Shown here in pieces: positions 10,158-44,139 of a stretch of DNA of 64,000 bases. Where the stretch lies: assembly GCF_015776785.2 (NCBI RefSeq), contig NZ_LFMD02000002.1, forward strand, positions 832,916 through 896,915, written 5' to 3'. The notes below the pieces were generated by a model. That model was not told the origin of the DNA. It saw only the letters and a program-made list of their open reading frames with translations, and did no database searches. Numbering within the stretch: position 1 is the stretch's first letter; each line of letters begins with the position of its first letter. This DNA is from Kitasatospora sp. SUK 42. GTDB taxonomy: Bacteria > Actinomycetota > Actinomycetes > Streptomycetales > Streptomycetaceae. The position numbers and the translations under genes were made by a program.

Positions 10158-12488
10158 GTGACGCCGCTCGACCCGACCGGCCGCCCCACCCACCCCGTAC
10201 CGGCCACCTTCCTGGCCGGACAACTCCCGACCGAGGCCCCGGAGGCGAACGGGCCAGTCACTCCCCGGGCCTCCGCGGACGCCCCGGTGGGCGCGCTCAG
10301 GCTCCCGGAGGCCCCACTGCCGCCGGCCGAGGTGGACCGGCTGGTGAACGGTCAGCACCACGACCCGCACGCGCTGCTCGGCGCCCACCCGGTGAACGGC
10401 GGGACGGCCGTGCGGGTACTACGCCCCTTCGCCGAACGGGTGGTGGTGGAGACCGCCCAGGGCCCGGCCGAACTCACCCACCAGCAGGGCGGGTTGTTCA
10501 CCGGCATGCTCGCGGGCGACGGGCTCCCGGACTACACCCTGCTGGTGACGTACCCCGGCGGCGGGCCGCTGCGCCAGCACGACGGCTACCGCACCCGACC
10601 CACCCTCGGCGAGCTCGACCTGCACCTGATCTCCGAGGGCCGGCACGAGCAGCTGTGGCGGGCGCTCGGCTCGCACGTCCGGACCGTCGACGGCGTCGCC
10701 GGCACCGCGTTCGCGGTCTGGGCGCCCAACGCCGTCGGAGTGCGGCTGATCGGCGGCTTCAACCACTGGGACGGCACCGGACACCCGATGCGCTCGCTCG
10801 GCTCCTCCGGGATCTGGGAGCTGTTCGTCCCCGGCCTGGCCGAGGGCGCCACGTACAAGTACGAGATCCACACCCGCCAGGGCTGGGTGCTCGACAAGGC
10901 CGACCCGCTGGCCCGGGCCGCCCAGTGCCCGCCCGCCACCGCCTCGGTGGTCACCTCCTCCGCCTACCGGTGGCAGGACGGCGAGTGGATGGCCCGCCGG
11001 GCCCGCGCCGCACACCACCGGGCACCGATGTCGGTGTACGAGCTGCACCTGGCCTCCTGGCGGCCCGACCTCACCGACTACCGGGCGATCGCCGAGGAAC
11101 TCCCCCGCTACCTCAAGGAGTTGAACTTCACCCACGTGGAGTTCATGCCGGTGATGGAGCACCCGTTCGGCGGCTCCTGGGGCTACCAGGTCTCCGGCTA
11201 CTACGCCCCCACCGCCCGGCTCGGCGGCCCCGACGACTTCCGGTACCTGGTGGACACCCTGCACCGGCACGGCATCGGCGTGATCGTCGACTGGGTGCCC
11301 GCGCACTTCCCCAAGGACGACTTCGCGCTCGCCCGCTTCGACGGCGAGCCGCTGTACGAGCCCGCCGACCCGCTGCGCGCCGAGCACCCCGACTGGGGGA
11401 CGCTGGAGTTCGACTACGGCCGCAAGGAGGTGCGCAACTTCCTGGTCGCGAACGCGGTCTACTGGTGCGAGGAGTTCCACATCGACGGCCTGCGGGTGGA
11501 CGCCGTCGCCTCGATGCTCTACCTCGACTACTCCCGCGAGAGCGGCGACTGGACACCCAACCAGCACGGCGGCCGGGAGAACCTGGACGCGGCCTCCTTC
11601 CTCCAGGAGATGAACGCCACCGTCTACCGGCGCTGCCCCGGCGTGATCACCGTCGCCGAGGAGTCCACCGCCTGGGACGGCGTCACCCGCCCCACCGACG
11701 CCGGCGGCCTCGGCTTCGGGCTGAAGTGGAACATGGGCTGGATGCACGACTCGCTGGTCTACATGTCCAAGGAGCCGGTCCACCGCAAGTACCACCACAA
11801 CGAGCTCACCTTCTCGATGGTGTACGCCTACTCGGAGAACTACATCCTGCCGATCTCGCACGACGAGGTCGTCCACGGCAAGCAGGCCCTGGTCTCCAAG
11901 ATGCCCGGCGACTGGTGGCAGCAGCGCGCCAACCACCGCGCCTACCTGGGCTTCATGTGGTCCCACCCCGGCAAGCAACTGCTGTTCATGGGGCAGGAGT
12001 TCGCCCAGGGCGCCGAGTGGGACCACGAGCACGGCCCGCAGTGGTGGGTGCTCGACGAGCAGTGGCCCGGGCACCAGGACCACCTGGGCGTGCGCCGCCT
12101 CGTCCGCGACCTCAACCGGACCTACCGGGACACCCCCGCCCTCCACGAGCTCGACAACACCCCGGACGGCTTCCGCTGGCTGGACGGCGGCGCCGCCGAC
12201 GACAACCTGCTCTCCTTCGTCCGCTACGCCGCCGACGGCTCCCCGCTGGTCGCCGTCTGCAACTTCTCCCCCGTCGTCCGCCACGGCCACCGGGTCGGCC
12301 TGCCGGCCCTGGACGGCCGCGAGCAGCTCTGGGCGGAGGTCCTGAACACCGACGCCGAGGCCTACGGCGGCAGCGGCGTCGGCAACTCCCACCCGATCAA
12401 GGCCGAGCCGGTCGAACGGGACGGCCAGCCCCGCTCCGCCGAACTGGTCCTCCCCCCGCTCGCCACCCTCTGGCTCCGCCCGGCCTGA
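10158..12488 (+). CDS. glgB: 1,4-alpha-glucan branching enzyme
   Basis: GlgB (GH13_9) introduces alpha-1,6 branches into the glucan made by GlgE. The protein has 776 residues: an N-terminal carbohydrate-binding region, then the (beta/alpha)8 barrel. The nucleophile is Asp448 in GLRVDAVASM and the acid/base is Glu501 in ITVAEES. Both are offset by 43 from E. coli Asp405/Glu458, which supports the assignment. The GTG start has a strong AGGAGGA site with 7-nt spacing. It is the last gene of the glgE-treS-pep2-glgB cluster. Confidence 0.95.
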   Translation: MTPLDPTGRPTHPVPATFLAGQLPTEAPEANGPVTPRASADAPVGALRLPEAPLPPAEVDRLVNGQHHDPHALLGAHPVNGGTAVRVLRPFAERVVVETAQGPAELTHQQGGLFTGMLAGDGLPDYTLLVTYPGGGPLRQHDGYRTRPTLGELDLHLISEGRHEQLWRALGSHVRTVDGVAGTAFAVWAPNAVGVRLIGGFNHWDGTGHPMRSLGSSGIWELFVPGLAEGATYKYEIHTRQGWVLDKADPLARAAQCPPATASVVTSSAYRWQDGEWMARRARAAHHRAPMSVYELHLASWRPDLTDYRAIAEELPRYLKELNFTHVEFMPVMEHPFGGSWGYQVSGYYAPTARLGGPDDFRYLVDTLHRHGIGVIVDWVPAHFPKDDFALARFDGEPLYEPADPLRAEHPDWGTLEFDYGRKEVRNFLVANAVYWCEEFHIDGLRVDAVASMLYLDYSRESGDWTPNQHGGRENLDAASFLQEMNATVYRRCPGVITVAEESTAWDGVTRPTDAGGLGFGLKWNMGWMHDSLVYMSKEPVHRKYHHNELTFSMVYAYSENYILPISHDEVVHGKQALVSKMPGDWWQQRANHRAYLGFMWSHPGKQLLFMGQEFAQGAEWDHEHGPQWWVLDEQWPGHQDHLGVRRLVRDLNRTYRDTPALHELDNTPDGFRWLDGGAADDNLLSFVRYAADGSPLVAVCNFSPVVRHGHRVGLPALDGREQLWAEVLNTDAEAYGGSGVGNSHPIKAEPVERDGQPRSAELVLPPLATLWLRPA

Positions 12489-18333: not shown

Positions 18334-19785
18334 CTACTTGTCGCTGTAGGGCGCGTTGTCGTTGAACATGTGCATCCCGGGGATGTGCAGGGTGCCGCCG
18401 AACTGGCCGGCCTGCTTGGCGGTGACGCCGGTCAGCTCCAGGTCCAGCGGGATCGGGATGGAGCCGATCAGGTCGTACAGCCAGCGCGGCAGGGTGTCCG
18501 GGGTGAGGGTGATCTCGCCCAGGTCGATCGGGATCGGCAGGCCGAGCACCTTGGACAGGTGGCCGGAGAGCCGCTCCACGTACATGGTGACCGGGCCCTG
18601 GCGCATGGTCGAGGTCGAGCCCGGGGCGCCCTGGACGTGGAAGGTGACGCCGTTGCCCTCCAGGGTCGACATGTCGAGGTTGTCGATGTCCACGCTGTCG
18701 ACGACGAACTTCAGCACCCGCTTGCTGCCGGTCGGGGTCTTCACGTCGTAGACGCCGTGGAAGGCCGCGCCGTGCAGGGCCAGCCGGCTGGTCAGCAGCG
18801 TCCAGTTCTGCTCCGGGACGACGTGGCCGGGGGCGGCCGCGCCGGCGGTCAGGCCGCGGGCGTCCACATCGCAGTTGGGGTTCGCGGTGGGCGAGGCGGT
18901 GGGCGAGGCCGACGGCGAACCGGAGGCGCTCGTGGTGGGCGCCGGGGCGTCCGCCGACGGGGCCGCGGAGGGCTCCGCCGTGGAGGTCGCCTTGTCCGTC
19001 GGCTTGCCGGCCGGCGCGGTGGCGGCCGGGGACGGCTGCCCGCCGGAGGGCCCGGCGTCCGAGGGCTGGGCGGCGGGCGGTGCGGCCTGCTGGGCACCGG
19101 TGGTCGGGGCCTGCGGCTGGGTCTGCGACTGGGACGGCTGCGCCGGGGTGCCGACCCTCGGGGCCGGGGCGGCCGGGGTCGCGGGCGCCGTGGCGCTCGG
19201 CGTCGGACTGGCCGAACCGCCCGGGTTCAGCAGGTGGTTGACGCCGCCGAGGAGGTCGTCGATCAGCCCCGCCCGGCTCGCGGTGGCGGTGCCACCGTCG
19301 GCGCCCTGGTAGACCGCGCCCACCGCGCCCGAGCCGCCGGTGGTGGCGGAGCGGACGGCGGGCGGTTGGGTGCCGGGCGGCGGGGTGGCCGCGGCTCCGG
19401 TCGGGGCGTCGGTCGGCCCGGTGGTCGGCGCGGTGGTCGGTGCGGTGGTCGACGGCTGGGTCGGCACCGAGGTCGGCCCGGTGTCGGGAGTGGCGCCCGG
19501 GCCGGGCGGCGGCTCGGGCAGCTCGCTCTTGGGGACGGGCGTCTCGATCGGCGCGACGTCCGGTACGGCGACCGGCGCGTTGCCGCAGGGCTTGCCCGCC
19601 GTGGACTCGGCGAGCGCCGGGTTGGGCGTGTAGGCCGCGGCCATCAGCAGGGCCGTCGGGACCGCGGCCATCGCCAGCGCCCGGCCCCGCAGCCGGATCC
19701 GTACCGGCGGGCGCGGCGCGGCGTGCCGGCCGGAGCGCGGTGCGGGGACGGCCGCGCCGTCGGCTTGCTCGGCCTGGCCGGTCAC
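18334..19785 (-). CDS. Exported Pro/Thr-rich protein, third gene of DUF6230/DUF6114 operon
   Basis: The protein has 483 residues. Residues 1-60 hold basic patches and a hydrophobic segment (ALAMAAVPTALLMAAA) ending near PALAES, which looks like a signal peptide. Residues about 75-315 are low-complexity Pro/Thr/Ser/Ala, typical of a cell-wall-spanning linker. The last about 170 residues form a folded-looking domain with alternating hydrophobics. Its beta-rich pattern resembles the DUF6230 protein two genes upstream (my impression, not a search result). The GTG start overlaps the DUF6114 stop as GTGA and has GGAGGAGG upstream. It is the last gene of the operon. Function is unknown. Confidence 0.8.
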   Translation of the reverse strand: MTGQAEQADGAAVPAPRSGRHAAPRPPVRIRLRGRALAMAAVPTALLMAAAYTPNPALAESTAGKPCGNAPVAVPDVAPIETPVPKSELPEPPPGPGATPDTGPTSVPTQPSTTAPTTAPTTGPTDAPTGAAATPPPGTQPPAVRSATTGGSGAVGAVYQGADGGTATASRAGLIDDLLGGVNHLLNPGGSASPTPSATAPATPAAPAPRVGTPAQPSQSQTQPQAPTTGAQQAAPPAAQPSDAGPSGGQPSPAATAPAGKPTDKATSTAEPSAAPSADAPAPTTSASGSPSASPTASPTANPNCDVDARGLTAGAAAPGHVVPEQNWTLLTSRLALHGAAFHGVYDVKTPTGSKRVLKFVVDSVDIDNLDMSTLEGNGVTFHVQGAPGSTSTMRQGPVTMYVERLSGHLSKVLGLPIPIDLGEITLTPDTLPRWLYDLIGSIPIPLDLELTGVTAKQAGQFGGTLHIPGMHMFNDNAPYSDK

Positions 19786-20453
19786 CGCGCCTCCTCCGGT
19801 TGCTCGGCGCCGCCCTGCTGCGGAACGACGGGCGCGGCGGCTTCGGCTGCTTCAACTGCTTCGGTGGCGGGCGCCTTCGGCGCGCCCTGGGCGGGCAGCA
19901 CGGCGGTGGGCGCCTCGGCGGCAGCGGCGGGCTCGGTGGCGACGCTCTCCGCCACCGCGCTCTCGGCCACCACGCTCTCCGCCACCGGATCGGCCGCCCG
20001 CCCGGCCCGGCGTCCGCGGTGCCCCTCGGCGGCCTCGGTCGAGGGCTCCGGCAGCGGCGCCCAGGAGACCAGCAGCCCGCCGCCGATCAGGCCGGGCAGC
20101 AGGGCCAGGCCGAAACCGGCCAGATTGGACATCGGGATCGAGACCAGCGTCAGCAGGATGGTCGCGATGCCCGCGAAGACCCGGACGGCCTTCTGGAACC
20201 ACCCGGTGATGCCGAGGGCGATCATCAGGACGCCGATGAGCAGCGAGCCGGCTCCCGCCGTGGTCGACATCGCGATGGTCACGCTGCCGAGCGCCAGGTG
20301 CGCGTACGGGAAGTAGAGGATCGGGACGCCGGCGATCATGGCCAGCAGGCCGCCCCAGAAGGGCCTGGTGCGACGGAACGTGCGGAATCCCCGCCAGAAC
20401 GACCCGATCGGATTCTGGCGGCCGGTCCGGGTTTCGACCGTTGCGCTGGACAT
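19782..20453 (-). CDS. DUF6114 membrane protein
   Basis: The protein has 223 residues. After a cytoplasmic start it shows about four membrane segments (FWGGLLAMIAGVPILYFPY, LLIGVLMIALGITGW, VFAGIATILLTLVSIPM, GLALLPGLIGGGLLVSW). A charged Ala/Glu/Pro-rich tail follows with repeats of the kind VAESVVAESAVAES. I recognise it as the DUF6114 family, which in streptomycetes accompanies a DUF6230 gene. The ATG at 20453 has GAGGAG with 7-nt spacing; an in-frame ATG at 20471 lacks a ribosome site. It is coupled by GTGA to the downstream exported protein gene. It probably sits in the membrane as part of an envelope complex (inference). Confidence 0.85.
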   Translation of the reverse strand: MSSATVETRTGRQNPIGSFWRGFRTFRRTRPFWGGLLAMIAGVPILYFPYAHLALGSVTIAMSTTAGAGSLLIGVLMIALGITGWFQKAVRVFAGIATILLTLVSIPMSNLAGFGLALLPGLIGGGLLVSWAPLPEPSTEAAEGHRGRRAGRAADPVAESVVAESAVAESVATEPAAAAEAPTAVLPAQGAPKAPATEAVEAAEAAAPVVPQQGGAEQPEEAR

Positions 20454-20584
20454 GGTGCGGCTCCTCGGCATCGCTACGAGGGGAAAACGACTGGCACGGA
20501 GCCGGGAGCGGCGGAACCCGCCGCCCCCGGCCCGCGAAGGACCCGTCCATCGGGCGCGCCCGTCGGCACGCCGTCAGGCGGGGC

Positions 20585-21256
20585 TCAGTAGCACTCGTTG
20601 CCCGGACCGTCGCCGTGCTTGAGCGACAGGCTCAGACCGCTGAGCACGAACTTCCCGGCCGAGGTGGCACGGGCGGTCTGCTCGACGTTGTCCAGCGAGG
20701 CCGACTTGGCGGCCTGGGAGAAGCCGGTGGGACCGGTCGGCAGGCCCTTGCCACCGCCGGCGGCGGAGACACCCGGGTGGGGCGTCCAGCCCTGGGTCGC
20801 CGTGCCGGGGAGGGTGGAGGCGTCCTGGCCGATGTTGATCTGGTTGAAGGTCGCGTCGGCCTTCAGCTGCTCCATGTCGATGAGCAGGTTGTCGGCGTGC
20901 ACCGGCTTGGAGCCGGCGCCGCCGGCGTTCAGCTGGAGGGTGATCTTGCCCAGGCCGAACCCGGACAGGTCGGTCACCACGGACTGGCACATGTTGGTGA
21001 TGTCGGCCGAGTCGAAGGCCGAGACGGCGACCGGGTGCGGCGTGCCGTTGGCCTCGATGTCGACGGTGCCGAACTGGGAGAAGTTCGTGCCCTCCAGGTG
21101 CGTGGCCTTCACCTTGAACTGCTGGCCGGAAATGCTGAACGAGGCGGCGAGCGCGCTGTTGGCGATCGAGACGCCGACCATCGCGGTGGCCGCGACGCTG
21201 GGCACCATCACCAGGGCGAAGCGCTTCCAGCGGGTCTTGCCGTAGGTCTTGGACAT
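20585..21256 (-). CDS. DUF6230 family exported protein
   Basis: This 223-residue protein starts with basic residues and a hydrophobic stretch (FALVMVPSVAATAMVGVSIA) ending near NSALAAS, so it is exported or membrane-anchored. The rest is a beta-rich domain. I recognise it as DUF6230, which databases sometimes label cholesterol esterase. I see no GxSxG lipase motif that would support such an activity. The ATG has a strong AAGGAGG site with 6-nt spacing. It is the first gene of the three-gene operon. A gap of 131 nt separates it from DUF6114. Confidence 0.85.
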   Translation of the reverse strand: MSKTYGKTRWKRFALVMVPSVAATAMVGVSIANSALAASFSISGQQFKVKATHLEGTNFSQFGTVDIEANGTPHPVAVSAFDSADITNMCQSVVTDLSGFGLGKITLQLNAGGAGSKPVHADNLLIDMEQLKADATFNQINIGQDASTLPGTATQGWTPHPGVSAAGGGKGLPTGPTGFSQAAKSASLDNVEQTARATSAGKFVLSGLSLSLKHGDGPGNECY

Positions 21257-22002
21257 GCGAGTCCTCCTTCTAGGACGTACATCTCCGGCTCCCCGGCGGT
21301 GCTTCCCGCACCGGTGGGGGCCTGGGATGGGAGAGAGCTACGTCCTCGGTAGCGGAGAGCGCCTTGGGCGTCGTCGGACGCGGGAGCGGCCTGCGTGCTG
21401 CGGCACTCCCGTCCCGAAACCGGCCGCCCCTGCGGGACGGCGGGTCGGACCGACGACATCGGCGATCACCCCCGAGCGACAACCAGCGACCGCGCAGGGC
21501 CGCGCGGCCGGTCGAGGACAGGAACCGCCGTGGGACCGCGGATACCCCCCTGCCCTCCCTACCGCCGGCCGGGGCCGGCGGATCGCCCGGTGGGGATCCC
21601 TCGCTCCTCGTGGCCGACCGGCTGTCGGAGGGTGTGGAGTCTGGGACCGGGCGTGGCCGATCGTGCTTGAATCCCGGGCGAAGCACAAGAGGTGCCTTAC
21701 TGACGGGTAATGCAACAACAGGTGGCGTTGATCATGGAATTGCCCCGAGTTGCACCGTGCGTGACGTCTTGAAGGAATCGTGGCGACGAAATCCGCCGGA
21801 AACACCAGCGAAACACCCGTGGGTGGTCACGATGCGTGACCACCCACGGGTGAAATCAAGATTTGGTAAACCTCTGTCCGGTTGACCGGATTGTCGCCAA
21901 ATCACCAGGCGACACCGCAGGTCATCCGCCGTGCCAGACGGTGCACCGCCACCCGTCCGGAAACCGGCCCGAGGCAGGTCCGGCACGGGACTTGAGCCGG
22001 GA
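21257..22002. promoter_or_regulatory. 746-base gene-free region upstream of the DUF6230 operon
   Basis: The longer open frames here have arbitrary composition and no ribosome sites, so I see no gene. The right part (about 21660-21900) is less GC-rich and probably carries the operon promoter on the minus strand. A perfect hairpin lies at 21814-21852. The exact promoter cannot be assigned by eye. Confidence 0.4.
21814..21852 (-). terminator. Perfect 18-bp inverted repeat
   Basis: Arms CACCCGTGGGTGGTCACG and its exact complement are separated by ATG (21832-21834). It lies 150 nt downstream of the thioredoxin gene, so it could terminate it. It is also upstream of the DUF6230 operon and could be an operator. 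Confidence 0.5.
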
Positions 22003-26968: not shown

Positions 26969-27466
26969 CACCTAACCGTACCGGCGCGCAGGACGCGTGC
27001 TACCAGCCGTCCTGATGGTGGACAAGCGCGACGCGTGGCGGGAACCCGCCAATCGGACGGCCAGGTCCATACCTGGACATTGCGCCGGTGTGAACGCGCG
27101 GCAACGGGCTCCGGGCGCACCGGTGTTGGCCGACGAACGGCCCACCGCCGCACTATCAGGCCTCGGTTCGGACCGGAACCCGCTGAAAGGCAGGGCGGGA
27201 AGTCCCCTTTGTCCTTCCGTTCACAATCCTTCGCCTTGGCGGGACTTGGCCAATTCATGAGCAAGACCTGTCATTTGATTTGCTCGATTGTCATGCTTTC
27301 CGCCAACCCCGTTCGGTAGCCACCACCCCCACCCAACCGGTGGCGAGCCGTACGACCGCTCGGGGTCCTCGCACGTCAGCGCCCGTTCCGCCCCGAAGGT
27401 GCCGAACCCGGCCCCCGGGACGTGGCGCGACCGCGCCCACACGCGGTTTCCCGGAAGGACTCGTCC
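26969..27466. promoter_or_regulatory. Divergent region between MarR and first protease gene
   Basis: This gap of 498 bases holds no credible gene. It contains the MarR TACGGT box at 26975-26980 (minus strand). It also contains an upstream element shared with the second protease gene: GGCCAAT at 27248-27254, CTGTC at 27268-27272 and CGATTGTCATGCTT at 27285-27298. The protease ribosome site GGAAGGA lies just before 27467. Confidence 0.5.
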
Positions 27467-29104
27467 GTGAAGCGAAAGCTCGCAGCAGTCGCCGTACTCT
27501 CCGCCACCGCCCTGCTCACCGGGATCGTCCAGGCGAGCACCGCCGCCACCGCCGGCGCGGCCCCCGTCGCCGCGGCGCAGGCCGCCGACCACCAGGCCGC
27601 CGCGCTCGCCCTGGCCGGCGGCCAGTCCGGTCCACTGGCCAAGGCCCTCGCCCTCGGCGGCCAGGAGCAGCTCGTCGCCAAGGACGCGGTGGTCGACAAG
27701 GACGGCACCCGGCACCTGCGCTTCGAGCGCACCTACGCCGGACTGCCGGTGCTCGGCGGCGACCTGGTCGTCCACCAGAACGCGGCCGGCGCGGTGAAGT
27801 CCGTGGACAAGGCCGTCACGACGAAGCTCGACCTGCCCAGCCTCAGCCCGAAGATCCCCGCGGACAAGGCCGCCGACCAGGCCACCGGCGCCGTCCAGGC
27901 CACCATAGGCATCGCCGCCGACAAGGACGAGTCCCCGCTGACCGCGGTGCACCAGACCGGCAAGGCCGAGCTGGTGGTCTGGGCCAGCGACGGCAACCCG
28001 CGCCTGGCCTACCGGACCACGGTCGAGGGCGTGCGCGCCGACGGCACCCCCAGCAGCCAGCTGCTGGTCACCGACGCCGCCACCGGCCAGGTGCTCTCCA
28101 CCCACGAGCAGGTGCAGACCGCCGCCGGCTCCGGCACGGGCGTCTTCGTCGGCAACGTCCCGCTGACCACCACCCAGAGCGGCACCTCGTACCAGCTGAA
28201 GGACGCCACCCGCGGCGGCCAGTCCACCTACAACCTGAGCAACAAGACCTCCGGCAGCGGCACCCTCGTCGCCAACAGCACCAACGTCTTCGGCAACGGC
28301 CTGGCCTCCAACAAGGAGTCCGCCGCCGTGGACGCCCAGTTCGGCGCGGCCACCACCTGGGACTTCTACAAGAACACCTTCGGCCGCAACGGCATCAAGA
28401 ACAACGGCGTCGGCGCCACCAGCCGGGTCCACTACGGCTCCAACTACGTCAACGCGTTCTGGAGCGACACCTGCTTCTGCATGACGTACGGCGACGGCGC
28501 GAGCAACACCCACCCGCTCACCGAGCTGGACGTGGCCGGCCACGAGATGACCCACGGCGTCACCTCCGCCACCGCGGGCCTCAACTACTCGGGCGAGTCC
28601 GGCGGCCTGAACGAGGCCACCTCGGACATCTTCGGCACCCTGGTCGAGTTCTACGCCAACCTGCCCTCCAACCCGCCGAACTACTGGCTCGGCGAGCTGA
28701 TCAACATCAACGGCAACGGCACCCCGCTGCGCTACATGGACAAGCCCTCCAAGGACGGCGCCTCGGCGGACTACTGGTCCTCCTCGGTCGGCAACCTGGA
28801 CGTCCACTACTCCTCGGGTGTGGCCAACCACTTCTTCTACCTGCTGTCCGAGGGCAGCGGCGCGAAGACCATCAACGGCTTCAACTACAACAGCCCGACC
28901 TCCAACGGCTCGACGGTCACCGGCATCGGCCGGGACAAGGCCGCGCAGATCTGGTACCGCGCGCTGACCGTCTACTTCACCTCCACCACCAACTACGCGG
29001 GCGCCCGCACCGGCACCCTCAAGGCCGCCGCGGACCTGTACGGCTCCGGCAGCGCCGAGTACAACGCGGTCGCGGCCGCGTGGAGCGGCGTCAACGTCAA
29101 CTGA
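27467..29104 (+). CDS. Secreted M4 (thermolysin-like) neutral metalloprotease 1
   Basis: This is an extracellular zinc protease made as a preproenzyme of 545 residues. It begins with a signal peptide (VKRKLAAVAVLSATALLTG, cleaved near AGAAP). An FTP/PepSY-type propeptide follows (GLPVLGGDLVVHQ) to about residue 215, then the M4 catalytic domain. Zinc ligands are His359 and His363 in HEMTH, with Glu360 catalytic, plus Glu383 in GGLNEATSDI. His455 in GVANHFFYLL is the transition-state histidine. The GTG has GGAAGGA upstream. It is closely similar to the next gene and shares its upstream elements, so the pair arose by tandem duplication. Confidence 0.94.
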   Translation: MKRKLAAVAVLSATALLTGIVQASTAATAGAAPVAAAQAADHQAAALALAGGQSGPLAKALALGGQEQLVAKDAVVDKDGTRHLRFERTYAGLPVLGGDLVVHQNAAGAVKSVDKAVTTKLDLPSLSPKIPADKAADQATGAVQATIGIAADKDESPLTAVHQTGKAELVVWASDGNPRLAYRTTVEGVRADGTPSSQLLVTDAATGQVLSTHEQVQTAAGSGTGVFVGNVPLTTTQSGTSYQLKDATRGGQSTYNLSNKTSGSGTLVANSTNVFGNGLASNKESAAVDAQFGAATTWDFYKNTFGRNGIKNNGVGATSRVHYGSNYVNAFWSDTCFCMTYGDGASNTHPLTELDVAGHEMTHGVTSATAGLNYSGESGGLNEATSDIFGTLVEFYANLPSNPPNYWLGELININGNGTPLRYMDKPSKDGASADYWSSSVGNLDVHYSSGVANHFFYLLSEGSGAKTINGFNYNSPTSNGSTVTGIGRDKAAQIWYRALTVYFTSTTNYAGARTGTLKAAADLYGSGSAEYNAVAAAWSGVNVN

Positions 29105-29512
29105 CGCACGGTCGGCCTACCGCTGACCTACGGCCTTGGCGGCGCCCCGGCGCCGTCAAGGCCGTCCCGCCGTCAAGGCCGTCCGCTGTCAAGGCCGCCC
29201 CGTTGGCGGAGTCCCGCCAGCGGGACGAACCGCGGATTCCGGGCAATGGACGGCAACCGAACCATCCGTACCGGCGCTGGCGACTCTCGGCCAATCCCCC
29301 GAGGCGCCCTGTCCTTTCCTGTCCCCGATTGTCATGCTTCTGACCAAGCTCCCGTCCGGCGCCCCGTCTCCCCCACCCAACGGGCAGGGCGTCAGCAGTC
29401 GCACGGGAGCCGCACGTCCGCGCCCTACCGCCCCCAACGGCGCCAAACCCGGCGCCCCGGTACGCGGCGCACCCGCAGGCACCCGCGGGTCTCGTGGAAG
29501 GAACCCCCGTAC
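29105..29512. promoter_or_regulatory. Region between the two M4 protease genes
   Basis: This gap of 408 bases holds no gene. It starts with three 17-bp repeats (29151-29201). It then carries the same phased elements as the first protease gene: GGCCAAT at 29289-29295, CTGTC at 29309-29313 and CGATTGTCATGCTT at 29326-29339. The second gene therefore probably has its own promoter. Confidence 0.5.
29151..29201 (+). repeat. Three tandem 17-bp repeats
   Basis: CGCCGTCAAGGCCGTCC occurs twice perfectly (29151-29167, 29168-29184), followed by a degenerate copy (29185-29201). It lies just after the first protease gene. Confidence 0.85.
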
Positions 29513-31138
29513 GTGAAGCGAAAGCTGACACTCCCGGCGGTACTGTCCGCCGCCGCCCTGCTCGCCGGGGTCGTCCAGATCGCCGCCGTCCCCGCCGCCC
29601 AGGCCGCCGCCCCGGCGCCCGACCAGCAGTCGGCCGCGCTCGCCCTGGCCGGCGGCCAGTCCGGCCCGCTGGCCACGGCCCTCGCCCTCGGCGGCCAGGA
29701 GCAACTCGTCGCCAAGGACGCCGTGGTCGACAAGGACGGCACCCGGCACCTGCGCTACGAGCGCACCTACGCCGGACTGCCGGTGCTCGGCGGCGACCTG
29801 GTCGTCCACCAGCGCCCGGACGGCTCCGTCGGCTCGGTGGACCGGGCCTTCACCGGCCGGCTGTCGGTGCCCGGCCTCACCCCCGGCCTCGCCGCGCCCC
29901 AGGCCGCCGAGCGGGCCACCGCCGCGGTGCGGGCGACCGTCGGCCTCGCCGCCGACCGGGACGAGTCCGCGCTCAGCCGGGTCGACGGCGCCGACGCGCC
30001 CGAGCTGGTGATCTGGGCCGCCGACGGCGCGCCGCGGCTGGCCCACCGCACGGTGGTGCGCGGCGAGCGGACCGACGGCACCCCGAGCCGCCAGGAGGTC
30101 GTCACCGACGCCGCCACCGGTCAGGTGCTGTCCAGCCAGGAGCAGGTGCAGACCGCGACCGGCACCGGCAAGGGCGTCAACGTCGGCACCGTCACGCTGA
30201 CCACCACCCAGAGCGGCACCTCGTACCAGCTGAAGGACGCCACCCGGGGCGGCCAGTCCACCACCGACCTCAAGGGCGGCACCTCGGGCAGCGGCACGCT
30301 CTTCAGCAACACCACCAACTCCTGGGGCAACGGCTCGCCCTCCAACCGCGAATCCGCCGCCGTGGACGCCCAGTTCGGCGCCGCCGTCACCTGGGACTAC
30401 TACAAGAACACCTTCGGCCGCAACGGCATCAAGAACAACGGCGTCGGCGCCGCGAGCCGGGTCCACTACAGCTCGAACTACGTCAACGCGTTCTGGGACG
30501 ACTCCTGCTTCTGCATGACGTACGGCGACGGCGCGAGCAACACCCACCCGCTCACCGCCATCGACGTCTCCGGCCACGAGATGAGCCACGGCGTCACCTC
30601 CGCCACCGCCGGCCTGATCTACTCGGGCGAGTCCGGCGGCCTCAACGAGGCCACCTCGGACATCTTCGGCACCATGGTCGAGTGGTACGCCAACCTGCCG
30701 GTGAACCCGCCGAACTACTGGATCGGCGAGAAGCTCAACATCAACGGCAACGGCACCCCGCTGCGCTACATGGACAAGCCCAGCAAGGACGGCGCCTCGG
30801 CCGACTCCTGGTACTCGGGCGTCGGCAACAAGGACGTCCACTACTCCTCCGGCGTCGCCAACCACTTCTTCTACCTGCTCGCCGAGGGCAGCGGCGCCAA
30901 GAGCATCAACGGCTACAGCTACAACAGCCCGACCTCCAACGGCTCGACGGTCACCGGCATAGGCCGGAACAAGGCGGCCGCGATCTGGTATCGCGCGCTG
31001 ACCGTCTACTTCACCTCCACCACCAACTACAAGGCCGCCCGCACCGGCACCCTCAAGGCCGCGTCCGACCTGTACGGCGCCACCAGCGCCGAGTACAAGG
31101 CGGTGGCGGCGGCCTGGAGCGGGGTCAACGTCAACTGA
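29513..31138 (+). CDS. Secreted M4 neutral metalloprotease 2
   Basis: This paralogue of the preceding gene has 541 residues: signal peptide (VKRKLTLPAVLSAAALLAG, cleavage near AQAAA), propeptide and M4 catalytic domain. Zinc and catalytic residues are His355, Glu356 and His359 in HEMSH, Glu379 in GGLNEATSDI and His451 in GVANHFFYLL. The propeptide and the middle of the protein are more divergent than the catalytic domain, which is close to identical over long runs. The GTG has GGAAGGA about 10 nt upstream. Differences such as HEMTH to HEMSH leave all catalytic residues intact, so both enzymes should be active. Confidence 0.94.
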   Translation: MKRKLTLPAVLSAAALLAGVVQIAAVPAAQAAAPAPDQQSAALALAGGQSGPLATALALGGQEQLVAKDAVVDKDGTRHLRYERTYAGLPVLGGDLVVHQRPDGSVGSVDRAFTGRLSVPGLTPGLAAPQAAERATAAVRATVGLAADRDESALSRVDGADAPELVIWAADGAPRLAHRTVVRGERTDGTPSRQEVVTDAATGQVLSSQEQVQTATGTGKGVNVGTVTLTTTQSGTSYQLKDATRGGQSTTDLKGGTSGSGTLFSNTTNSWGNGSPSNRESAAVDAQFGAAVTWDYYKNTFGRNGIKNNGVGAASRVHYSSNYVNAFWDDSCFCMTYGDGASNTHPLTAIDVSGHEMSHGVTSATAGLIYSGESGGLNEATSDIFGTMVEWYANLPVNPPNYWIGEKLNINGNGTPLRYMDKPSKDGASADSWYSGVGNKDVHYSSGVANHFFYLLAEGSGAKSINGYSYNSPTSNGSTVTGIGRNKAAAIWYRALTVYFTSTTNYKAARTGTLKAASDLYGATSAEYKAVAAAWSGVNVN

Positions 31139-39180: not shown

Positions 39181-42100
39181 GTGCGGGGCAACGACCGCTA
39201 CGAGGCTGACGATCACCTCTCCCAGTTCGAGGCCGAGATGGGTCGGACTCGGAAGGAGCGGGACAAGGCAGTCGAGCATGCCGAGGACCTCGCCTACCAG
39301 GTGGAGGTGCTCCGGGCGAAACTGCACGAGTCCCGTCGCATGCTCGCCCAGCCGCGCGCCTTCGACGCCGTCTCCGGCCAGGCGGAGCAGATGCTCCGCA
39401 CCGCCGAGATGCAGGCCCAGCAGCTGCGCGCCGACGCCGAGCGCCAGCTGCGCGAGTCCCAGGCCGCCACCCAGCGGATCATGGCCGAGGCCGCCGAGCG
39501 CACCGCCCGGCTGGAGGCCGAGCTCACCGCCCGCCGCCGCCAGCTGGAGGAGGAGCTCGCCGAGCTGCGCCGCTCCGCCGAGCAGCACGTCAACGGCTGG
39601 GCCGAGCAGACCCGGGCAGGCTCCGAGCAGGAGGCCCAGCGGCTGCTCCAGGACGCCCGCGCCGAGTCCGAACGGATGGTCGCCGCGGCCCGCGCCGAGG
39701 CCGCCGCCCTCTCCGACCACGCCCGTGCCCAGACCGCCGCCGACGTGGACGCCGCCCGCGGCGAGGCCCAGGCCGCCGCCGAGGCCGCCCTGCAGCGCGC
39801 CCACAGCGACGCCGAGCGCATGCTGCGCGCCGCCTCCGAGCAGGCCCAGCAGGCCGGCGCCCAGGCGGCCGCCGACGTCGACGCGGCCCGCGGCCAGGCC
39901 CAGCAGGAGCTGGCCGCCGCCCACGCCGCCGCCGAACAGCAGCTGGCCGTCGCCCACGGCGAGATCGGCCGGCTCAAGGAGCAGGCGGCCGCCGAGCAGT
40001 CCCGCGCCGAGCAGCAGCTCACCGCGGCGAAGGCCGAGATAGAGCGGCTGCGCGCCGAGGCGATCGCCGAGGCCGAGCGCACCCGCCGGGAGGCCTCCGA
40101 GCTGCGCGCCCAGGCCGAGCAGGCCGCCGAGCAGCTCCAGGCCGACGCCGAGGCCGCCGCCGAGCGCAAGGTCGCCGACGGCGAGGCCGCCAGCGAGCAG
40201 CGCTCGCAGACCGCCCGGGCCGAGGTGGCCAGGATGGTCGCCCAGGCCACCAACGACGCCGATGCGATCCGCGCCGAGGCGCAGGCCCTCCGCACCGAGG
40301 CCGCCACCAAGCAGGCCGAGGCGGACGCCGCCAAGGCCGCCGCGTCCGAGGAGGGCGAGCGGCTGCGGGCCACCGCCGAGTCGGTCGCCGCCGAGCTGAA
40401 GGCCGAGGCCGAGGCCGCGATCGCCGAGCTGCGCGCCCAGGCCGACCGGGACGTCGCCGAGCTGCGGGCCCAGGCCGCCGCCGAGGCACAGCGACTGCGC
40501 AGCGAGGCCGAGGAGGAGGGCCGGGCCGCCGGCGCCAAGGACGCCACCGTCCACCTCGCCAAGGCCGCCAAGACCGCCGAGGAGGTGCTCGGCCGGGCCA
40601 ACCAGGACGCCGAGACCGCCCGCGGCGAGGCCTCCGCCGAGGCCGAACGGATCCGCGCCGAGGCCGCCGCCGAGGCGCAGCGGCTGCGCGAGCAGGCCCA
40701 GGCCGCCGTCGAGCAGGCCCAGAACGCCGCGCTGGACGACGCCGCCGCGATCCGCGAGCGGATCGAGCAGATGCAGGACGAGGCGGCCCGGCTGCGGGCC
40801 GAGGCCGAGGAACTGCGCGCCCAGGCCGCGGCCGAGGCCGACCGGGTGCGCGGCGAGGCCCGCCGCCAGGCCGTGCTGCAGATCGAGGAGTCGGCGAAGA
40901 ACGCCGAGGAGCTGCTCACCAAGGCCAAGGCCGACGCGGACGAGCTGCGCGCGGGCGCGGCCGGGGAGATCGAGCGGCTGCGCGAGCAGGCCCAGGAGCA
41001 GGCCGCCGAGACCCAGGGACGGGCCGAGCAGACCCTGACCCGGGCCCGCGCCGAGGCCGGGAAGATCACCGCCACCGCCGAGCAGCAGGGCCAGGACGCC
41101 CTCGCCGCCGCCAAGGCCGCGGCCGCCGAGAACCGCGCCGCCGCCGAGCGTGAGACCGCCGAACTCCGGCGCGACGCAACCGAGTTCGACCAGCGGGTAC
41201 GCACCGAGGCGAGCACCGCCGCGGAGGCGCTGACCACCGACGCCCAGGCCGAGGCGAACGCCGTCCGGGACGCCGCGGTGGCCGACGCCGAGCGGGTGCG
41301 CACCGAGGCCGACACCGAGGCCGCCCGCGCCCGGGCCGAGTCCGAGGCCGCCGCCAACGCGCTGCGCGAGGAGAGCCGTCGCGAGCGCGAGGAGGCCGCC
41401 GCCGGGCTCCAGCAGGAGCGTGAGGAGACCGCCGAGCAGCTGGCTGCCGCCCGGGCCGCCCGCGAGCAGGCCGAGCAGGCCGCCACCGAGCTGACGGAGC
41501 GTACGGCGGCCGAGGCCACCGAGGTCCGCGAAGCGGCCGAGCAGCACAGCACCGAGCTCCGCGAGGCCGCCGACCGGTACGCCGCCGAACAGCGCGAAAC
41601 CGCCGACCGCGAAACCACCGAGCTGCGCGCCCTCACCCAGCAGGAGACCACCCAGCACCGCGAGACCGCCGAGGCCTACGCCGACCGCGTCCGCACCGAA
41701 GCCGAACAGCACGCCACCGAGCTGGCCGAGCGTACGGCGGCCGAGGCCACCGAGGTCCGCGGGGCCGCCGAGCAGCACAGCACCGAGCTCCGCGAGGCCG
41801 CCGACCGGTACGCCGCCGAACAGCGCGAAACCGCCGACCGCGAAACCACCGAGCTGCGCGCCCTCACCCAGCAGGAGACCACCCAGCACCGCGAGACCGC
41901 CGAGGCCTACGCCGACCGCGTCCGCACCGAGGCCGAGCAGTACGCCACCGGGCAGCGCACCGAGGCCGAGCAGCACGCCGCCGAGCAGCGCGCCGAGGCC
42001 GAGCAGTACGCCGACGAGCAGCGCGCCGAGGCCGAGCAGTACGCCGACGAGCGCCGCGCCGAGGCCGACGAGTCGCTGGAGAAGGCCCGGACCACCGCCG

Positions 42101-44139
42101 AACAGCGGCGCGCCGAGGCCGCCCAGGACGCCAAGGCCACCCGCGAGAAGGCCGCCGCCGAACTGGCGCTGGCCCACGAGCAGGCCGAGACGGTACGGGC
42201 CGAGGCCGGCCGCGAGCTGTCCGAGGCCCGCGCCACCGCGGACGACATCCGCGCCGAGGCCACCGCCGCCCTGGAGCAGGCCAGGGCCGACGGCGAGGAC
42301 GTCGTCGCCGCTGCCAGGGCCGAGGGCGCCGAGCTGGTCACCACGGCCGAGGAGGAGGCCGCCGAAGTCCGCCAGTCGGTGGCCGGCCTGCACGAGGCCG
42401 CCGCCGAGCAGATCGCCGCACTGCGGGCCACCGCCGAGCAGGACGCCGCCGAAACCCGCGCCCTGGCCGAGCAGGACGCCGCCGAAACCCGCGCCCTCGC
42501 CGACCGGGAGACGACCGAGCAGCACGAGGCCGCCGACGCCTACGCGGCCGAGACCCGCGACCTGGCCGACCGGGAGACCGCCGAACAGCGCGAGCTCACC
42601 GACCGGGAGACGACCGAACAGCGCGCGGCCGCCGACAAGTACAGCGCCGAGCAGCACGAGGCGGCCGACAAGTACAGCGCCGACCTGTGGGCCCGTACCG
42701 AGGCCGAGACCACCGCCCTGCGCGAGCAGACCGAGCTGGAGCTGGCCGCCGAGCGCGAGGCCACCGAGACCGAGCTCGGCCGCCAGCGCACCGAGGCCCA
42801 GGCCTACGACGCCAGGCTGCGCGCGGACGCCGAGGCCGAGCTGCACGCCGCCCAGGAGGCCGCCGAGCAGCTGCGCGCCGAGGCCGACGCGCAGGCCGCC
42901 CGCACCGTGGCCGACGCCGAGGTCCAGGGCGCCCGTACGGTCGCCGACGCCGAGGAGCTGGCCGCCGCGCTGCGCGCCGAGGCCGAGGAGTACGCCCTCG
43001 CCACCCGCACCCTGGCCGACGAGTACGACTCCGCCACCCACACCCGCGCCGACGCCTACGACGCGGAGACCCGGGAGGCCGCCGAGCAGTTCGACAAGGC
43101 CACCCGCGACCGGGCCAAGTCCGTCCTGGAGAAGGCCTTCGCGGACGCCGAGGCGCTCGGCGAGGACGCCCAGACCACCGCGCTGGCGACCACCGCCGCC
43201 GCCGAGGAGCAGGCGGACGCGATGGTCGCCGCCGCCCGCAAGGAGGCGGACCGGCTGGTCGCGGCCGGCGAGGCCGCCGGTCAGGCCGAGGTCGAGAAGG
43301 GCCGCGCCGACGCCGACGCGCTGCTCGCCGAGGCCCGCCGGGACGCGACCGCGATCCGGGAGCGCGCCGAGGAGCTGCGCGAGCGCACCGACGCCGAGGT
43401 GGAGGCGCTGCACGAGCGGGCCCGCAAGGAGAACGCGGCGGCGATGAAGTCGGCCGGCGAGCGGGTGGACGCGCTGGTGACGGCCGCCCAGGAGCAGCTG
43501 ACCGAGGCCGAGGACCAGGCGGTCGCCACCGTCGCCGAGGCCGAGGACCGTGCCGCCGCCCTGGTCGCGGCCGCCGAGGACCGGGCGAACGAGCTCACCT
43601 CGGAGGCCTCCGCGGAGGCCAGCAAGGTCCGCATCTCGGCCGTCCGCAAGGCCGAGGGCCTGCTCAAGGAGGCGGAGACCAAGCTCGCCGACTCCACCGA
43701 CCGCGCCGAGGCGCTCATCGTCAAGGCCGAGGCCAAGCTGGCGTCGGCCGAGACCGAGGCCGAGGAGCGGCTGGAGAGCGCGGCCGGCGAGGCGGAGAAG
43801 CGGCTGCGCGAGGCCGACCGCACCGCCGACGAGCAGATCGAGCTGGCGAAGGCGGAGGCCGAGCGGCTGGTCGTCGAGGCGAAGGCCGAGGCGAAGCGGG
43901 TCACCGACGAGGGCCGGCGCGAGCTGGACGAGTTGGTGCGCCGCCGCAAGGACATCAACACCGAGATCTCCAGGGTGCAGGACGTGCTGTCGGCGCTGGA
44001 GGCGTTCGAGGCACCGTCACCGGTCGCCCAGGCCAACGGGGGAAGCAGCAACAAGAAGGACGGGGGTGCCAAGGCCGGTGCCGGAGTTGGCTCCCCCCGG
44101 TCGGGTGGCAATCGCTCCAAGAGCGCACCACCCGATTGA
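39181..44139 (+). CDS. scy: Polarised growth scaffold protein Scy
   Basis: Scy is a giant coiled-coil protein that organises the hyphal tip complex with DivIVA and FilP. The GTG start gives the usual N-terminus (RGNDRYEADDHLSQFEAEM), with a DivIVA-like opening (residues about 12-55, KAVEHAEDLAYQVEVLRAKL). It has 1652 residues, about 300 more than the roughly 1326 I recall for S. coelicolor. Almost the whole protein is Ala/Glu/Arg-rich coiled coil. The C-terminus (VRRRKDINTEISRVQDVL) matches FilP-like ends, followed by a short Gly/Lys tail. Internal repeats at 41482-41943 and 41923-42696 account for part of the extra length. The ribosome site is weak (GGATGG). Confidence 0.95.
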   Translation: MRGNDRYEADDHLSQFEAEMGRTRKERDKAVEHAEDLAYQVEVLRAKLHESRRMLAQPRAFDAVSGQAEQMLRTAEMQAQQLRADAERQLRESQAATQRIMAEAAERTARLEAELTARRRQLEEELAELRRSAEQHVNGWAEQTRAGSEQEAQRLLQDARAESERMVAAARAEAAALSDHARAQTAADVDAARGEAQAAAEAALQRAHSDAERMLRAASEQAQQAGAQAAADVDAARGQAQQELAAAHAAAEQQLAVAHGEIGRLKEQAAAEQSRAEQQLTAAKAEIERLRAEAIAEAERTRREASELRAQAEQAAEQLQADAEAAAERKVADGEAASEQRSQTARAEVARMVAQATNDADAIRAEAQALRTEAATKQAEADAAKAAASEEGERLRATAESVAAELKAEAEAAIAELRAQADRDVAELRAQAAAEAQRLRSEAEEEGRAAGAKDATVHLAKAAKTAEEVLGRANQDAETARGEASAEAERIRAEAAAEAQRLREQAQAAVEQAQNAALDDAAAIRERIEQMQDEAARLRAEAEELRAQAAAEADRVRGEARRQAVLQIEESAKNAEELLTKAKADADELRAGAAGEIERLREQAQEQAAETQGRAEQTLTRARAEAGKITATAEQQGQDALAAAKAAAAENRAAAERETAELRRDATEFDQRVRTEASTAAEALTTDAQAEANAVRDAAVADAERVRTEADTEAARARAESEAAANALREESRREREEAAAGLQQEREETAEQLAAARAAREQAEQAATELTERTAAEATEVREAAEQHSTELREAADRYAAEQRETADRETTELRALTQQETTQHRETAEAYADRVRTEAEQHATELAERTAAEATEVRGAAEQHSTELREAADRYAAEQRETADRETTELRALTQQETTQHRETAEAYADRVRTEAEQYATGQRTEAEQHAAEQRAEAEQYADEQRAEAEQYADERRAEADESLEKARTTAEQRRAEAAQDAKATREKAAAELALAHEQAETVRAEAGRELSEARATADDIRAEATAALEQARADGEDVVAAARAEGAELVTTAEEEAAEVRQSVAGLHEAAAEQIAALRATAEQDAAETRALAEQDAAETRALADRETTEQHEAADAYAAETRDLADRETAEQRELTDRETTEQRAAADKYSAEQHEAADKYSADLWARTEAETTALREQTELELAAEREATETELGRQRTEAQAYDARLRADAEAELHAAQEAAEQLRAEADAQAARTVADAEVQGARTVADAEELAAALRAEAEEYALATRTLADEYDSATHTRADAYDAETREAAEQFDKATRDRAKSVLEKAFADAEALGEDAQTTALATTAAAEEQADAMVAAARKEADRLVAAGEAAGQAEVEKGRADADALLAEARRDATAIRERAEELRERTDAEVEALHERARKENAAAMKSAGERVDALVTAAQEQLTEAEDQAVATVAEAEDRAAALVAAAEDRANELTSEASAEASKVRISAVRKAEGLLKEAETKLADSTDRAEALIVKAEAKLASAETEAEERLESAAGEAEKRLREADRTADEQIELAKAEAERLVVEAKAEAKRVTDEGRRELDELVRRRKDINTEISRVQDVLSALEAFEAPSPVAQANGGSSNKKDGGAKAGAGVGSPRSGGNRSKSAPPD
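41482..41943 (+). repeat. 231-bp near-perfect tandem duplication in scy
   Basis: Copies 41482-41712 and 41713-41943 differ at only a few positions (for example CTGACGGAG against CTGGCCGAG, and GAAGCG against GGGGCC). The unit encodes 77 residues, a multiple of both 7 and 11. A third copy begins at 41944 but diverges after a few codons. Confidence 0.95.
41923..42087 (+). repeat. Five 33-bp (11-residue) repeats in scy
   Basis: Units of 11 residues follow the pattern R-[TA]-EAEQ-[YH]-A-x-[EG]-[QR]: RTEAEQYATGQ, RTEAEQHAAEQ, RAEAEQYADEQ, RAEAEQYADER, then a degenerate unit. The 11-residue period is typical of right-handed or mixed coiled coils. Confidence 0.9.
42433..42696 (+). repeat. Eight 33-bp (11-residue) repeats in scy
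   Basis: Eight consecutive units start with Ala/Thr-Asp/Glu, for example AEQDAAETRAL twice identically, ADRETTEQHEA, ADRETAEQREL, TDRETTEQRAA and ADKYSAEQHEA. The unit length of 33 bp is exact throughout. Confidence 0.9.

Follow-up and report, generated by a model that had tools for sequence, protein, structure and literature searches.

Anatomy, RNA leader and possible lipid-handling role of a DUF6230-DUF6114 gene module in Kitasatospora sp. SUK 42

Three genes of the locus and their conserved order

The window analyzed here is a 64,000-nucleotide stretch of the Kitasatospora sp. SUK 42 genome. Between positions 18334 and 21256, three open reading frames lie on the minus strand at the coordinates given in the original prediction, encoding in turn a DUF6230 protein (P3), a DUF6114 protein (P2), and a Pro/Thr-linker protein (P1). 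The same window holds what we take, from their sequences, to be pta, ackA, meaA, meaB, and thiolase genes.

P3 (20585..21256, minus strand, 223 aa) starts with an ATG preceded by AGGAGG and matched the full profile of DUF6230 (PF19741, E 7.2e-53), passing the gathering threshold with 179.2 bits against a cut-off of 27.5. A simple hydropathy scan found a single hydrophobic segment, located at the N-terminus and followed by ALAAS; the protein consists of this hydrophobic leader and a beta-rich domain. Its AlphaFold2 model had a pLDDT of 77 and a pTM of 0.72, with residues 1-42 unreliable. Cys90 and Cys222 are kept in most DUF6230 members, and in 36 actinomycete-type DUF6230 sequences the positions conserved to at least 97% were S43, C90, C222, one leader Arg, and one leader Pro, the remaining ones being small or hydrophobic. 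By gene order and numbering, near pyk2 (SCO5423), P3 is the ortholog of SCO5420 of S. coelicolor, which bears the name 'cholesterol esterase'.

P2 (19782..20453, minus strand) is listed as a 229-aa frame at 19782-20471, but translation more likely begins at its second ATG, at 20453. It matched DUF6114 (PF19609, E 7.1e-29) across the full profile, at 20058-20387, again passing the gathering threshold (101 bits, cut-off 27.9). The hydropathy scan gave four hydrophobic segments, and the protein ends in an Ala/Glu-rich tail. A weak match to SfLAP (E 1.4) was set aside. No use of the name DUF6114 was found in the literature searched.

P1 (18334..19785, minus strand, 483 aa, GTG start) matched no Pfam family even at E 5 and no NCBIfam model above cut-off. 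It is composed of a leader, a Pro/Thr/Ser-rich linker, and a C-terminal beta domain. By eye, the leader has a basic stretch, a moderately hydrophobic stretch, and an ALAES end; the hydropathy scan flagged no hydrophobic segment in P1.

The P2 and P1 frames overlap by 4 nt (19782-19785), and the P3-P2 gap is 113-131 nt. Among 80 related loci, which were fetched via the P3 gene, P3 was present in 80, P2 in 79, and P1 in 77, and the three loci lacking P1 are contigs that end at that point. The order thioredoxin-P3-P2-P1-(convergent) pyruvate kinase was found in all 74 loci that hold thioredoxin and pyruvate kinase as well. This gene association is far beyond chance, and strand, spacing, and conserved order suggest that P3, P2, and P1 are probably carried on one transcript.

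A second DUF6230-like domain, and its fusion to DUF6114 in relatives

The original prediction had proposed that the first and last proteins are distantly alike, and profile comparison bore this out. The C-terminal domain of P1 (residues 306-483, 178 residues; 18334..18870, minus strand) aligned along the whole DUF6230 domain in hhalign, with a local score of 29.3 (E 3.6e-4, probability 37, 132 columns). This score exceeded those of 100 shuffles (at most 19.1) and of 29 control profiles (at most 19.95), while the global score of 28.3 compared with at most 23.3 for circular shifts. The signal was clear from diverse profiles only, for which the program's own probability was 37-50%; shallow profiles restricted to Streptomycetaceae gave a weak one (probability 1.5, E 0.034). 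Direct HMM cross-searches were also weak, with a custom DUF6230 HMM finding P1 domains at a best E of 0.022, and the domain was not reached by the Pfam DUF6230 model (PF19741) itself. Taken as profile evidence, these comparisons support the P1 C-terminal domain as a remote relative of DUF6230, within a DUF6230-like superfamily as defined here. Beyond its family name, P3 is shown here to be one partner of a constant two-gene set whose other member is a membrane protein, and to have a diverged second copy on P1.

Structure prediction, which had been suggested as a check on this likeness, was consistent with it. The P1 domain was modeled by AlphaFold2 with a pLDDT of 89 and a pTM of 0.84, and strands start at aligned residues in the separate models of P3 and of the P1 domain. 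By this comparison of strand positions, the folds did not look unrelated. A sequence search of P3 and P1 against solved structures returned nothing significant (best E 0.064), Foldseek gave no PDB match at E 0.001 or better for either model, and the best Z scores of VIA-align against the PDB (3.5 and 2.3) were with other folds. LolA, FadL, galectin, and secretin appeared in the PDB searches at noise level and were not used as evidence; no lipid-binding fold was found for either model among these matches.

DUF6230 was present in 59 of 61 sampled Streptomycetaceae genomes. Across the phylum it was found in 22 of 396 genomes, all 22 of which also encode DUF6114. DUF6114 itself was above cut-off in 24 of the 396, and in the two additional genomes (G026 and G098) a custom DUF6230 HMM located DUF6230 next door. 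A doubtful P1 match (G391; E 0.0025, 58-aa frame) was set aside before counting. In each of the 38 loci fetched, which come from several families and include one fragment, the two genes were adjacent. More generally, DUF6114 was encoded next to DUF6230 in all examined loci except where a contig end truncated them. Co-occurrence across genomes was thus as the original prediction expected, and, together with the P1/P3 relatedness and its co-starting strands, neither unrelated folds nor a lack of co-occurrence was observed. In 12 of the 38 loci, DUF6114 and the P1 domain lie in a single reading frame, and in all four fusions checked a further hydrophobic segment separates the two. Such fusions, reported here, place DUF6114 and the tethered domain in a single machine. 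Second copies (loci L119-L122, L125, and L129) showed no P1 domain, and plasmid records yielded five distant matches without annotation.

In three loci of one distant family, a large protein encoded nearby on the opposite strand carries an N-terminal DUF6230-like region (29.6, 17.9, and 17.1 bits), and in one of the three, SLT and M23 domains typical of wall hydrolases were confirmed. The assignment of these genes to an envelope system in the original prediction is thus backed by the leaders, the four-TM protein, the fusions, and the presence of a DUF6230-like region in a protein of wall-hydrolase type. Its further suggestion, that the related domains might occupy the two sides of the cell wall, is a conjecture. 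In a distant family, genes for a thiolase, an enoyl-CoA hydratase/3-hydroxyacyl-CoA dehydrogenase, and a TetR regulator are found close to the pair. For a neighbor survey, 114 genes were picked from 18 of the 29 loci outside Streptomycetaceae, and 102 of them were scanned. Among the 25 of 113 families listed, the commonest by raw count were TetR (8), M23 (4), SLT_2 (4), DUF885 (3), and adh_short (3), and 3HCDH was found in 2 of the 102. No support was found for lipid genes being general neighbors of the pair, as the families listed for these 102 neighbors gave no clear lipid signal.

The RNA leader of the operon

Upstream of P3, the che1 RNA (Rfam RF02935; 21460..21556, minus strand) scored 65.5 bits, above its gathering score of 54.1, identifying it as the leader of the present operon. 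It was the sole Rfam match at the gathering threshold within the window. Matches to che1 were found in 52 of 61 Streptomycetaceae genomes, and each of the 52 shares its strand with a DUF6230 match that begins 205-330 bp further downstream.

A second leader hairpin (21262..21367, minus strand) beside the ribosome-binding site is conserved, but falls outside the Rfam che1 model. It has a GGACGUA/UACGUCC stem with an anti-Shine-Dalgarno CUCUCC upstream and the Shine-Dalgarno AGAAGGAGGA at its 3' end. Counting eight leaders longer than 230 nt, both stem arms were present in 81 of 81 leaders and the anti-Shine-Dalgarno in 76, and Shine-Dalgarno pairing was 0.92, compared with 0.77 in shuffles. In a consensus fold of 17 of the 81 leaders, none of the 18 consensus pairs was changed on both sides, so support for the hairpin comes from invariance, folding energy, and Shine-Dalgarno pairing. 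The whole 304-nt leader folded slightly better than shuffles (z -1.41, with 7 of 100 as good). The hairpin is predicted to hide the ribosome-binding site. Neither che1 nor this hairpin was part of the original prediction. Weinberg 2017 is reportedly the cited source of the che1 motif and may already note the second hairpin.

One che1 leader of S. lividans is already in print: che1-SLIV_11405, whose gene is placed under cholesterol metabolism, is listed among cis elements with RNA-seq validation (PMC8079986). A term search of PMC3765725 found neither che1 nor SCO5420.

Possible roles of the module

The label 'cholesterol esterase' seems to have its origin in enzymological work, as Xiang 2006 and 2007 are said to describe the enzymology of a cholesterol esterase of a 'novel family'. 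The original prediction held that the label is unsupported. In agreement with this, the DUF6230 alignments contain no GxSxG motif, no conserved Ser-His-Asp, and no conserved His or Asp, and P3 departs from its label in having no hydrolase signature; since the label apparently rests on enzymology, however, dismissing it on motif grounds is unwarranted. Several studies have used the name, and their link to DUF6230 is by name. In a potato suberin study, a 'cholesterol esterase' leads the lipid class in a table of the S. scabiei secretome (PMC5158115). The S. scabiei cholesterol esterase C9Z6Y6 is described as not specifically produced with suberin (PMC4098958). Others include Sven_0933, which responds to nitrogen starvation and is listed without an S. 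coelicolor homolog (PMC3087709), and a gene that responds to xylose and xylobiose (PMC12772271). In S. albulus, a DUF6230 gene was among moderate constitutive promoters (PMC12835213).

We propose a three-part cell-envelope module that handles lipid-like molecules, a reading to which we give an even chance. The anatomy of the module, read from gene and domain sequences, is very probably correct; that it handles lipids is evenly balanced, and the direction of traffic and the RNA switch are less secure than either. Outside the cell, the free DUF6230 protein would bind fatty-acyl or sterol esters or help to release them, and the tethered copy on P1 would receive or hold them near the membrane by means of its linker, with DUF6114 as the membrane partner. 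The che1 leader and the hairpin hiding the ribosome-binding site would act on translation to set expression, which would rise with lipid esters as carbon source. LolA-type lipid carriers resemble this scheme in idea, since there too a long-stranded extramembrane beta protein works with a membrane partner, but Foldseek probabilities for LolA and FadL were at most 0.03 and no membership is claimed. A more elaborate version, which we offer tentatively and consider rather doubtful, is an actinobacterial machine for lipid capture. In it, a single family of beta domains, with a fold unrecognized in the PDB, would serve as a free secreted protein, as a tethered copy linked or fused to the four-TM protein, and as a wall-hydrolase cap, while a two-domain che1 leader would control translation and its invariant tail may compete with the hairpin.

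The Tween response bears on the alternatives. SCO5420 is stated to increase almost 37-fold on Tween, compared with 3- to 12-fold for other fatty acid pathway genes (PMC7494193), which speaks for lipid handling, as do the fatty-acid-type genes near the pair in a distant family, the S. scabiei secretome entry, and the metabolic genes of the window. The same paper calls SCO5420 the Tween-cleaving enzyme (PMC7494193). That name would fit DUF6230 being, as the databases label it, a secreted esterase from an atypical family, with DUF6114 and P1 as anchor and display parts. We consider this unlikely, as GxSxG is absent, no His, Asp, or Glu is found among the positions at least 97% conserved in the 36 sequences, and no hydrolase fold was prominent among the PDB matches; a co-purifying host esterase could explain the old activity. 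Tween is also a detergent, so its induction may be stress. DUF6230 could then be a wall- or membrane-proximal binding domain of a cell-wall or envelope-stress system responding to membrane disturbance, which is in line with the large DUF6230-like proteins of the distant family, the one with SLT and M23 domains in particular, with the M23 and SLT_2 neighbors (4 each of 102 scanned), and with the description of aliphatic suberin constituents as membrane perturbants (PMC4098958). The large proteins are limited to that one family, though, and the accompanying rise of fatty acid genes is expected if Tween is food, making this an improbable account as well. That the three genes are merely conserved neighbors without joint function is highly improbable given the 12 single-frame fusions, the invariant adjacency in several families, and the 4-nt overlap.

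DUF6230 is near-universal in the sampled Streptomycetaceae, but its assigned function is based on a label, and the present results call into question an annotation that is used for reading proteomes and transcriptomes. If the proteins form a single module, in which a domain is duplicated and fusions occur naturally, three isolated unknowns become one machine open to experiment, and the che1 RNA would gain an expected mechanism.

Conservation and organization of the operon

Three ORFs lie on the minus strand of 18334-21256 in the order P3, P2, P1. P3 (20585-21256) is a DUF6230 protein (Pfam 7.2e-53) and P2 (19782-20471) a DUF6114 protein (Pfam 7.1e-29); P1 (18334-19785), with a Pro/Thr/Ser-rich linker and a C-terminal beta domain, matched no Pfam family and no NCBIfam model above cut-off in profile searches. 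The P2 stop and the P1 start, a GTG, have 4 nt in common. P2 itself probably starts at its second ATG (20453), because a GAGGAG site lies upstream and homologues start there. A hydropathy scan found four hydrophobic segments in P2 and one, N-terminal, in P3, and flagged none in P1, whose leader ends in ALAES when read by eye.

A scan of named bacterial genomes with the DUF6230 alignment confirmed at least 533 stretches, of which the best 80 loci were kept; all come from Streptomyces, Kitasatospora and related genera, save one "Actinobacteria bacterium". Of these best 80, all contain P3 (the scan being DUF6230-based) and thioredoxin, 79 contain P2, 77 contain P1, and 74 contain pyruvate kinase. 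Where P1 is missing (three loci), the contig ends at that point. Gene order and strands were identical in all 74 of these loci that hold all five genes. The system first proposed from the window is real and conserved, and is now better defined than the sequence alone allowed.

Across the phylum, DUF6230 occurred in 22 of 396 genomes and DUF6114 exceeded the cut-off in 24, including all 22; in the other two, a DUF6230 relative detected with our own DUF6230 HMM adjoins (loci L203 and L204). In the order of one sampled genome (G204), 14 of 81 genomes had DUF6230, and in a distant family of another class (f18) DUF6114 exceeded the cut-off in 7 of 39. The P1 domain (residues 306-483; 18334-18870, minus) was found in 15 phylum genomes, comprising 12 sampled Streptomycetaceae, two relatives, and one doubtful case (G391). 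DUF6230 adjoins DUF6114 in 38/38 loci, one a fragment (L128), fetched on the grounds of holding either family. The two thus co-occur across genomes, as a single system would imply.

Further copies were also seen. In L115 (7137-11579), a tandem DUF6230-DUF6114-DUF6230-DUF6114 is followed by an unmatched protein and a third DUF6230 (11025-11579), found by Pfam and missed by our own HMM. Other Streptomyces copies adjoin MPAB/Lcp-type oxygenase genes (PF09995; L124:4823-6608 and L125:5748-6578). In L119, L121, and L122, genes close to a second Streptomyces copy encode a large signalling protein, a roadblock-like protein, and a GTPase, surroundings which we take to resemble a conservon. Elsewhere in the window, 39181-44139 encodes a very long, repeat-bearing protein of 1652 aa (repeat units of 33 and 231 bases), presumably similar to the Streptomyces polarity protein Scy, with a neighbor at 44257-45186, and 27422-31138 encodes two adjacent, probably exported proteins with similar C-termini (SAEY..VAAAWSGVNVN).

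Relationship of the P1 domain to DUF6230

The original prediction held that the first and last proteins seem distantly alike. Profiles from Streptomycetaceae only matched weakly (probability 1.5). With diverse profiles (44 DUF6230 sequences versus 78 P1 domains from Streptomycetaceae and three remote forms), the local hhalign alignment covered 132 columns (score 29.3, E 3.6e-4, probability 37), and the global score was 28.3 (E 2.4e-5, probability 50). The best score among column-shuffled controls was 19.1 in local mode (100 trials) and 12.05 in global mode (60 trials); reversed profiles gave 13.6 (local) and 7.6 (global), and circular shifts no more than 23.3 (global mode). DUF6230 was also compared with 29 other gene or frame-family profiles from the same loci, some of which are repeats or antisense frames; its highest score there was 19.95, and no match was longer than 34 columns. 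The four P1 profiles, by contrast, gave scores of 26 to 36 against DUF6230, three spanning 132-134 columns and one 28; direct HMM searches between the families were weak (best E 0.022).

The AlphaFold2 model of P3 (pLDDT 77, pTM 0.72; residues 1-42 poor) has strands at 47-67, 73-87, 89-97, 103-111, 119-138, 141-145, 179-199, 202-204, and 209-214, and that of the P1 domain (pLDDT 89, pTM 0.84) at 23-44, 49-57, 59-63, 66-70, 76-80, 86-90, 94-108, 119-122, 142-157, 160-162, and 167-171. When the strands of these separately built models were placed by hand on the hhalign alignment, four of them began at aligned residues: F47 of P3 paired with W23 of the P1 domain, and 73, 202, and 209 with 49, 160, and 167, respectively. 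PDB searches with both models returned no convincing relative. With the local score above all controls, the proposed remote likeness is supported, and the fold comparison agrees with it at the four strand starts, which coincide via the sequence alignment in this hand placement.

Of the 38 fetched loci, 15 gave a P1 domain, which in 12 of them shares a single open frame with DUF6114 (L112, L124, L187-L194, L201, and L206). A hydrophobic segment separates the two in all four fused frames checked (L112, L189, L193, and L194), which suggests that the Ala/Glu tail lies inside and the beta domain outside. By analogy, the split P2 and P1 of the window would share this layout.

The che1 leader

The che1 RNA (RF02935; 21460-21556, minus; 65.5 bits) was the sole Rfam match in the window at the gathering threshold. 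Of 61 Streptomycetaceae genomes, 52 had che1 under strict filters (50 above cut-off) and 59 had DUF6230; all 52 che1 matches lie 205-330 bp upstream of a DUF6230 match on the same strand, and DUF6230 is also present in seven of the nine genomes that lack che1. The literature lists che1-SLIV_11405 as an RNA-seq-validated cis element (PMC8079986) and calls che1 function unknown (PMC11678152).

Between che1 and the start codon sits a second conserved piece, outside the RF02935 model, which is predicted to form a hairpin around the ribosome-binding site (21262-21556, minus, with che1). Its GGACGUA and UACGUCC arms, inner UCUCC/GGAGA arms, and Shine-Dalgarno (SD) sequence GAAGGAGGA are invariant in 81/81 leaders, which are one family and hence not independent; a CUCYCC-type anti-SD occurs in 76. 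Predicted folding persists in the variable middle (mean z -2.6, with 80 of 81 below -1, from mononucleotide shuffles of that segment alone). Predicted SD pairing averages 0.92 versus 0.77 in 324 shuffled controls, and falls to 0.81 with the che1 tail included. No covarying pairs were found in the 17 leader sequences tested. The leader may act as a translational switch, which we offer as a hypothesis because no pair covaries.

The esterase label and the role of the module

The doubt already cast on the "cholesterol esterase" label was right about the motif, as GxSxG is absent from the DUF6230 alignments, although the label itself appears to go back to published enzymology. Residues conserved at ≥97% among 36 actinomycete-type DUF6230 sequences include S43, C90, and C222, and none of them is His, Asp, or Glu. 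The two cysteines may be joined by a disulfide; C90 is missing from 7 and C222 from 5 of the 44 DUF6230 sequences. The Streptomyces cholesterol esterases of Xiang reportedly lack the lipase motif. Two Xiang papers on these novel enzymes appear in the reference list of PMC3514274. That DUF6230 is an esterase proper seems unlikely to us.

In PMC7494193, SCO5423 is pyk2 and SCO5420, a cholesterol esterase, is up almost 37-fold on Tween. By numbering and conserved gene order, SCO5420, SCO5421, and SCO5422 are probably the counterparts of P3, P2, and P1. S. scabiei tables contain two "cholesterol esterases", so identified by label only, one of which is the most abundant lipid-class entry (PMC5158115) but is described elsewhere as not specific to suberin medium (PMC4098958). 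Genes or proteins so labelled, again by label only, rise on nitrogen starvation (PMC3087709) and xylose/xylobiose (PMC12772271), and a DUF6230 promoter is classed as constitutive and moderate (PMC12835213); these three reports, like the suberin one, count against a lipid-only role. In the literature searched, DUF6230 is named in one paper and DUF6114 in none.

Genes around the pair in the distant family include, by Pfam in L116, thiolase, hydratase/dehydrogenase, SDR, P450, and TetR genes and, by resemblance in L117, L126, and L127, thiolase and hydratase/dehydrogenase genes. The window holds genes that we take, from sequence, to be pta, ackA, pyk, meaA, meaB, and a thiolase. Large proteins with an N-terminal DUF6230-like region, which would be a third use of the domain, are encoded on the minus strand at L117:3506-6040 (17.9 bits), L126:3221-5752 (17.1), and L203:2143-4587 (29.6), opposite in strand to DUF6230-DUF6114 and one gene away. 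The L117 protein contains SLT_2 and M23 domains (Pfam), each found in 4/102 scanned neighbors. A wall or stress role for the module appears to us just as improbable as esterase activity proper. A tally of 102 neighbors from 18 loci gave no clear lipid signal. We therefore give lipid handling by P3-P2-P1 about even chances, which ranks it above either of these roles.

The individual parts are already catalogued, and the module as such was not found described in the literature searched. It consists of a fixed DUF6230-DUF6114 pair and a tethered relative of the DUF6230 domain, with natural fusions in related loci and a che1 RNA upstream.
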